The notes under the pieces: model-generated
Told to the model about the DNA's origin: nothing
What the model saw: the letters and a program-made list of their open reading frames with translations, nothing else
The model's database searches: none
Translations under genes and position numbers: made by a program
Assembly (NCBI GenBank): GCA_020725175.1
Contig: DYFM01000003.1
Coordinates: 1 to 38,453, forward strand
Source of the DNA: Candidatus Paceibacter sp.
Lineage (GTDB): Bacteria > Patescibacteriota > Patescibacteriia > Magasanikbacterales > UBA922
Reading direction: 5' to 3'
Length of the DNA stretch: 38,453 bases
In this document: one piece after another, positions 29,762-34,053 of the stretch
Numbering within the stretch: position 1 is the stretch's first letter
How the letters are laid out: every line of letters begins with the position of its first letter

Positions 29762-29782
29762 ATTAATAAAAAAGTAACATAT

Positions 29783-29849
29783 ACAGATAACAATTAACAA
29801 TTAACAAATAACAGATAACAAATAACAGATAACAGATAACAGATAACAG
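29783..29849. repeat. Degenerate tandem repeat (AGATAACA/AATTAACA/AAATAACA units)
   Basis: ACAGATAACAATTAACAATTAACAAATAACAGATAACAAATAACAGATAACAGATAACAGATAACAG, between ATPase and permease genes. Confidence 0.92.
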
Positions 29850-32357: not shown

Positions 32358-32735
32358 TTACAACCACCCTTGCTTTTTGTAATAGGTATAGCCGATATCA
32401 AGTAATTGTGTCATTTGTTTGATCAGTTCGGGTGTTAGTTTTTTTATGATAAAACATGATTTTCCTTTGAGAAGCGGTAGGATTTCTTCTGGGAGGTGGT
32501 TTTTGAGTGTGGGATCAATATAGATTGGCATGAAGTAAAATCCTACGTGCTGTTTGTGTATCATGAGTCCGGTAAAATATAGTGCGGTAGGTTTGCGCTT
32601 ATTAAGAGAAATGGATTTCTTTGTCCAGAGATCATAGGTTGTATCAGTATTTTTTTGGTTTTCAAAATACTTCTCGTATGGCGTGAGGAGTTGTTTCAGC
32701 TGGTTGAAAATTACTTTTAGTTTAGTACTATCCAT
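32358..32735 (-). CDS. DUF1801/YdhG-like small protein
   Basis: MDSTKLKVIFNQLKQLLTPYEKYFENQKN...KPTALYFTGLMIHKQHVGFYFMPIY...LLKGKSCFIIKKLTPELIKQMTQLLDIG; start refined from the ORF-track start at 32858. Confidence 0.65.
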   Translation of the reverse strand: MDSTKLKVIFNQLKQLLTPYEKYFENQKNTDTTYDLWTKKSISLNKRKPTALYFTGLMIHKQHVGFYFMPIYIDPTLKNHLPEEILPLLKGKSCFIIKKLTPELIKQMTQLLDIGYTYYKKQGWL

Positions 32736-32796
32736 GAGGCTGGCGAATGAATGTGAAGGTTGCGCCGGTCGAGCGTTTGCTACCCGACCGACGCTT

Positions 32797-32898
32797 CTAC
32801 TTCCTCGCCCACCATATGATAAAAAGGAGGGCGAGGAAGAACAGGCCGCGTGGGACAAGGATGTCCCACGCGGCCTGGAGGGTTTCAGGTGTTATCAT
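32797..32898 (-). CDS. 33-aa single-TM small protein MITPETLQAAWDILVPRGLFFLALLFIIWWARK
   Basis: Absent from the ORF track; preceded on the minus strand by AGGAGGTGTGTC-ATG (strong SD) and TTGACA-N17-CATTCT; hydrophobic FFLALLFIIWW with basic tail. Confidence 0.65.
   Translation of the reverse strand: MITPETLQAAWDILVPRGLFFLALLFIIWWARK
32844..32875. repeat. Perfect 14-bp inverted repeat, 4-nt loop
   Basis: GGCCGCGTGGGACA-AGGA-TGTCCCACGCGGCC, inside the smORF. Confidence 0.95.
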
Positions 32899-32916
32899 GA
32901 CACACCTCCTACTGGG

Positions 32917-32945
32917 AGAATGTCAGATAATTCGGAAGGTGTCAA
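32917..32945 (-). promoter_or_regulatory. Promoter of the 33-aa smORF
   Basis: Minus strand TTGACA-N17-CATTCT, SD starting about 7 nt after the -10. Confidence 0.65.
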
Positions 32946-33465: not shown

Positions 33466-33560
33466 TCACCCTAACCTACTAACCTACCAACTTGCTAACC
33501 TGCCAACTTGCTAACTTTCTAACTTACCAAGCTGCCAACCTGCCAACCCACCAACTCCCA
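33466..33560. repeat. Degenerate ~8-bp tandem repeat (CTAACCTA/CCAACTTG-type units)
   Basis: CACCCTAACCTACTAACCTACCAACTTGCTAACCTGCCAACTTGCTAACTTTCTAACTTACCAAGCTGCCAACC... Confidence 0.9.
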
Positions 33561-33655
33561 GCCTTGGAAACTCTTCAAAAATCTGTTACGCTACTTTATA
33601 GTGAGTAGTTACTATAAAAAATATTTTTCCTCCCTCCTCATTTATTCTCAATTCT

Positions 33656-33783
33656 CAATCTCAATCTCAATCTTAATCTTAATCTCAATCTTAATCTTAA
33701 TCTTAATCTCAATCTCAATCTTAATCTTAATCTTAATCTCAATCTCAATCTTAATCTCAATCTTAATCTCAATCTCAATCTTT
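33656..33783. repeat. Two-variant 6-bp tandem repeat (AATCTC/AATCTT), about 21 units, immediately upstream of the glutaredoxin start
   Basis: Direct reading; variant order approximately CCTTCTTTCCTTTCCTCTCCT for the sixth base. Confidence 0.95.
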
Positions 33784-33786
33784 TTT

Positions 33787-34053
33787 ATGAAACCAGTCAC
33801 TATCTATACCAAACCCATGTGCCCCTATTGTGTGCGGGCAAAAGAATTGTTTACCAGTCTCAATGTTCCGTATGAAGAAATTGATGTGTTGGAGCATCCG
33901 GATAAGCGAGAAGAAGTAAGCCGTCAGTACAATTGGATGACTGTGCCGATGATTTTTATTGGTGAAGAATTTGTCGGGGGATTTGATGATCTATCAAAAT
34001 TGGCAGCCGAGGGGAAGCTGGGGCAAATGTTGGATCTAACAACTACTGCTTGA
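33787..34053 (+). CDS. Glutaredoxin-family protein
   Basis: MKPVTIYTKPMCPYCVRAKELFTSLNVPYEEIDVLEHPDKREEVSRQYNWMTVPMIFIGEEFVGGFDDL (CPYC active site). Confidence 0.93.
   Translation: MKPVTIYTKPMCPYCVRAKELFTSLNVPYEEIDVLEHPDKREEVSRQYNWMTVPMIFIGEEFVGGFDDLSKLAAEGKLGQMLDLTTTA

Follow-up and report, generated by a model that had tools for sequence, protein, structure and literature searches.

On the minus strand of the window analysed here, a stretch of 38,453 nucleotides from Candidatus Paceibacter sp., a reading frame for a hydrophobic peptide of 33 residues lies behind a well-formed Shine-Dalgarno (SD) sequence and within an RNA of exceptional predicted stability. All features that the initial annotation had described at this locus are confirmed as present and non-random, and the frame (hereafter smORF) probably encodes a small membrane peptide from an mRNA whose structure is of consequence. 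As judged from its sequence, it appears to stand outside any known family. Our main reading, to which we assign a probability of roughly 0.4, is that of an orphan gene for a small membrane protein, carried on a structured mRNA with a short leader and working like the mRNA of a type I toxin, a function that we infer from the arrangement of the locus. Most of the uncertainty in this reading concerns the toxicity of the peptide and the mode of its control. The features are as follows.

32940–32945, minus strand: -35 hexamer TTGACA, a consensus match read directly, with putative function
32917–32925, minus strand: extended -10 element TGA-CATTCT (hexamer 32922–32917), read directly
32903–32910, minus strand: Shine-Dalgarno sequence AGGAGGTG, 4 nt 5' of the ATG
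32797–32898, minus strand: smORF, 33 aa, MITPETLQAAWDILVPRGLFFLALLFIIWWARK, followed by TAG (ORF reading, hydrophobicity control, helix model)
32887–32907, minus strand: hairpin 1, AGGUGU/ACACCU, enclosing the start codon and pairing part of the SD (fold prediction)
32842–32877, minus strand: hairpin 2, 16-bp perfect stem with 4-nt loop, within smORF (inverted-repeat scan)
32800–32839, minus strand: hairpin 3, 11 bp plus 2 bp beyond a U-U mismatch, at the 3' end of smORF (fold prediction)
32762–32794, minus strand: hairpin 4, 13 bp including three G-U pairs, 3' of the stop codon (fold prediction)
32358–32735, minus strand: uncharacterised gene, 125 aa, without an SD of its own, possibly co-transcribed with smORF

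Gene signals and the encoded peptide

The promoter had been called strong on the basis of TTGACA-N17-CATTCT. This arrangement is present, with a 17-nt spacer and with TGA directly 5' of CATTCT, but its strength has to be qualified: CATTCT agrees with TATAAT at three of six positions, which makes it a weak -10 hexamer, and the site is missing from the output of a stricter promoter scan. Taken together, the -35 hexamer, the extended -10 and the SD would place the transcript start 12–16 nt 5' of the ATG, that is, almost at the SD. AGGAGGTG at the spacing seen here (N4), or at any spacing of 2–6 nt from an ATG, has its single occurrence on the contig at this locus, against 0.15 expected. Together with its spacer (AGGAGGTGTGTC) it covers 32910–32899 of the minus strand. 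Contig-level statistics refer throughout to contig C33 (89 kb, GC 0.41), of which the window is part; the genome comprises 1.24 Mb in 33 contigs, with an estimated completeness of 98%. We also considered AGGAGGTGTGTCATGA as a possible cassette of the lineage. GGAGGTGTGTCATGA is carried by four genomes (the own genome and three relatives) and has no match in reversed controls; the cassette was nevertheless rejected, because AGGAGGTGTGTCATGAT gives 35 scattered matches over all genomes against about 30 expected arithmetically. Matches to AGGAGGTGTGTCATGA beyond the SD itself are chance, and none of these loci combines a short ORF with comparable hairpins.

The 33 codons and TAG were found as described, as was the GC-rich nature of the coding sequence, with a GC content of 0.54–0.57 at the locus compared with 0.23–0.40 in the immediate flanks and 0.41 contig-wide. 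AlphaFold models the peptide as one helix spanning residues 4–32 (pLDDT 89). Its hydrophobic core, GLFFLALLFIIWWA, has Arg17 on one side and Arg32-Lys33 on the other and measures 14 residues, or 19 if ILVPRG is added, which is short for a membrane-spanning helix. With its predicted single helix, hydrophobic core, basic C-terminus and length of 33 aa, the product has the character by which type I toxins are recognised, namely that of a small hydrophobic, putatively membrane-acting peptide of less than about 60 aa.

RNA fold and its relation to the coding sequence

The predicted transcript of 166 nt has a minimum free energy (MFE) of -95.8 kcal/mol, compared with -52.1±4.3 kcal/mol in dinucleotide shuffles (z = -10.25, with 0 of 200 as stable), and among all 160-nt windows of the contig the strongest fold falls on the smORF locus (-95.4 kcal/mol; next locus -73.1). 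The region is predicted to form four hairpins in a row. Its central inverted repeat, reported as perfect over 14 bp, is perfect but measures 16 bp around a 4-nt loop (CAGGCCGCGTGGGACA-TCCT-TGTCCCACGCGGCCTG) and is the longest perfect short-loop inverted repeat on the 89-kb contig. The second stem, said to overlap the coding 3' end, does so (32839–32800), and the CGGTCG/CGACCG stem after the stop codon exists as well, although with 13 bp rather than 6. This last hairpin is predicted at -22.9 kcal/mol on the smORF strand and -15.7 kcal/mol on the opposite strand. All three of its non-Watson-Crick pairs are G-U on the smORF strand and A-C on the other; this bias points to RNA-level pairing of the smORF strand over a DNA palindrome, three pairs being a small sample.

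Is the frame coding, structured, or both? We put this question to internal tests because the searches gave no credible homolog for dN/dS or covariation. The coding sequence has an MFE of -61.7 kcal/mol, compared with -23.8±4.1 kcal/mol when the peptide is recoded synonymously with local codon usage and -30.3±4.9 kcal/mol when the recoding is GC-biased; the lowest values among 500 recodings were -37.3 and -45.3 kcal/mol, respectively. Since synonymous recodings fold far more weakly, the fold is not a by-product of the peptide sequence. In a stem-preserving control in which pairs and free bases were shuffled, the frame remained open in 44% of cases, and 0.07% of the open frames reached the observed hydrophobicity over 14 residues, a figure that is optimistic, as the shuffle disrupts the pyrimidine run CTTCCTCGCCCTCC. 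These values suggest that the stems do not easily account for the hydrophobic peptide, and that each of the two, peptide and fold, is more extreme than the other would require, which suggests dual use. Of everything claimed for the locus at the outset, a dual coding and structured RNA is what the synonymous and pair-shuffling controls and the wobble pairs of hairpin 4 support best.

For nascent RNAs between 30 and 250 nt long, the predictions keep the SD mostly paired at every length tested (mean unpaired 0.10–0.47), first with ACACCU and later with ACCCUCC, early in the ORF, as an alternative partner. Sequestration of the SD as a selected trait is unsupported, because 20–24% of synonymous recodings reach the same degree of pairing.

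How might such an mRNA work? In our main reading, a sigma-70-type promoter of a lineage-specific small-protein gene would give rise to a transcript starting almost at the SD and folding into four hairpins, of which the first would enclose the start codon, the next two would lie in the coding region and the last would follow the stop. The perfect SD would drive translation of the 33-aa single-helix peptide, which might insert into the cytoplasmic membrane or lie on its surface. The hairpins would keep the mRNA inert and stable and would limit translation, through SD pairing and through slow elongation across a stem of -35 kcal/mol, such that peptide output would stay low until a partner RNA binds the structure or until it is melted or cleaved. 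We infer the steps of this scheme, from transcription and translation to membrane insertion, growth inhibition and regulation, and by analogy the smORF mRNA would be most similar in function to the mRNA that encodes the toxin in type I toxin-antitoxin systems. In the aapA3 type I toxin mRNA, hairpins sequester the SD, one of them within the ORF (PMC6733600), and the ribosome binding site of timP mRNA is controlled by structure (PMC11228461). The smORF shares with aapA3 of H. pylori and enterobacterial timP a very short hydrophobic peptide, a structured mRNA and an SD that can pair with ORF sequence. It differs from them in that its mRNA is almost without a 5' leader and its in-ORF stems are far stronger than a short SD hairpin; furthermore, no antitoxin RNA is seen, no sequence relation to either was found, and SD pairing does not exceed that of synonymous controls.

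Relatives, toxin families and antisense transcription

A homolog search in related genomes, as had been proposed, returned only the locus itself as a credible match and hence no relatives for comparison, be it with smORF DNA, with the peptide or with a covariance model of the RNA fold (86 genomes of the order and up to 381 of the class, the covariance model being run in 192 and in 381 genomes). The best peptide matches in relatives (E 0.001–0.002, 37–46% identity) were treated as chance: one, L035, falls in an ATPase-like gene, in an unrelated frame, while the other two, L034 and L054, are without comparable SD, start or hairpin context. The reach of these negative results is limited because the dehydrogenase neighbour of smORF shares just 38–53% identity with its counterparts in the closest genomes carrying one. 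The relatives searched belong to other genera, and absence from them need not mean a recent origin of smORF. Phages and plasmids, as well as viral contigs searched with degenerate codons, yielded no credible relative, which leaves a phage or plasmid origin unsupported. In Rfam, no family reaches its gathering score in the window, and the best local matches fall far below the cut-off and look like chance (for example, PtaRNA1 with 22.9 bits against 47).

The product had been proposed as a small membrane regulator or toxin-like peptide. The peptide features are compatible with this, but no toxin family matches, similarity to LdrC is non-significant and no antisense RNA is evident. Pfam, NCBIfam and PADLOC gave no credible match for the peptide, and a PDB match to Photosystem I subunit III (E 0.0039) was set aside as a short hydrophobic chance match. 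By eye, the peptide is suggestive of the Ldr toxins (E. coli LdrC): both are some 35 aa long and have Trp as residue 11, Asp and, four residues on, Pro ahead of the hydrophobic stretch, and then WW and a basic C-terminus. Membership is nonetheless unsupported, because the Ldr profile PF13940 matches nothing in the own genome even at an E cut-off of 10, nor the peptide by hmmscan, and global alignment with LdrC, at p 0.018 against full shuffles, reaches p 0.13 when segment composition is kept. A plus-strand antisense RNA, whose search had also been suggested, does not stand out as a gene: there are six promoter-like sites compared with 3.3±1.5 in shuffles and no convincing antisense promoter among them, one weak plus-strand site (TTGAAA-16-TACTAT, 32704–32731) lies within chance numbers, and in a scan of the locus the plus strand showed no terminator followed by a good U tract.

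If the gene is real, smORF would be a micropeptide gene of a reduced-genome candidate-phylum bacterium that lies outside all protein-family libraries tried and is invisible to profile annotation, it would offer a compact test case for translation control via in-ORF structure, and it could widen the known reach of type I toxin-like control to include Patescibacteria, for which a limited literature search on small proteins and toxin-antitoxin systems found nothing. A more far-reaching and quite improbable idea is that Patescibacteria have a new class of transcript with two functions, in which a membrane-active micropeptide would be encoded by an almost fully paired rod of tandem hairpins and the coding sequence itself would act as the control element, switched by melting, RNase III or a partner RNA, without a classical antisense antitoxin.

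Alternative readings and the genomic neighbourhood

Given the co-directional 125-aa gene, smORF might instead be a leader peptide, with hairpins 2–4 acting in cis on that gene via ribosome position or RNase processing. The two lie on the same strand, with 61 nt between the smORF stop and the next ATG, and no stem with a convincing U tract was found between smORF and 32735, including after hairpins 3 and 4; a match of the terminator scan on hairpin 2 has its tail, TTCTTCCTCG, inside the ORF. The absence of an SD from the 125-aa gene, and its frame, which is +1 to smORF and open through the overlap, also fit such coupling, and a short frame with strong SD, hairpins and a co-directional gene downstream recalls leader-peptide attenuators. 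Against this, the locus has neither a terminator/anti-terminator pair nor an attenuator-type run of regulatory codons, the orthologue of the 125-aa protein in the relative G013 (48% identity) has no smORF or similar leader upstream and sits in a different neighbourhood, and the hydrophobic peptide would go unexplained. We regard the leader function as unlikely, though as the alternative that survives best. The 125-aa protein has no Pfam match, occurs in 3 of 192 related genomes (two homologs in relatives, the one in G013 being the closer) and has no homologs in the genome and viral collections searched; its structure model (pLDDT 45) is of too low a quality to be informative. Its KGKSCF...GWL pattern presumably recalls DUF1801-like proteins. 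On the minus strand, the frame of this gene continues upstream without a stop across hairpins 3 and 4 (32735–32858), where it overlaps smORF. A frameshifted fusion of the two is formally possible, and the probability of such openness by chance is not small.

Alternatively, the locus may produce a structured non-coding RNA from the minus strand, with the ORF incidental or vestigial. The extreme fold and the G-U asymmetry of hairpin 4 would suit such an RNA, and 33 open codons are not unusual in the stem-preserving control; yet the best SD-ATG of the contig lies directly 5' of the frame, the hydrophobicity is far above that control and Rfam offers no family, all of which makes this reading unlikely too, and slightly more so. 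A benign small membrane protein, be it a subunit of a membrane complex or a regulator, with hairpins that just stabilise the transcript, would account for the same gene signals and the single-helix model. We give it little weight: no small-subunit family matches, the neighbouring genes hint at no partner complex, and in-ORF stems are unneeded for mere stability. Finally, DNA-level palindromes (a recombination site, the end of a mobile element or a protein-binding site) are very improbable despite the perfect 16-bp palindrome, the GC-rich island and the lack of a counterpart in relatives, since the feature is single-copy in the whole genome, which also leaves a repeated or mobile element unsupported, since hairpin 4 deviates at three positions in the manner of RNA, and since no mobile-element gene, recombinase or transposase is found among the neighbouring genes tested.

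The type I toxin-like gene that we favour would sit among housekeeping-like neighbours: an ABC transporter, a glucose/sorbosone dehydrogenase-like protein, an O6-methylguanine methyltransferase DNA-binding domain, from whose gene smORF diverges, glutaredoxin and a phosphoglucose isomerase-like protein. Several tandem repeats occur in the window. Between the methyltransferase and glutaredoxin genes lies a degenerate repeat of the CTAACCTACCAACTTG type (33471–33556; 8/16/24 nt), and a hexamer repeat, TCTCAA/TCTTAA (33646–33781; 22.5 copies, 91% matches), falls within the listed start of the glutaredoxin ORF (33601–34053), whose true start is probably an ATG 3' of this repeat. Two heptamer arrays with similar units lie about 29 kb apart, at 29765–29849 (AATAACA/TAACAGA, 12 copies) and at 1–55 (GTAACAA, 7.9 copies).
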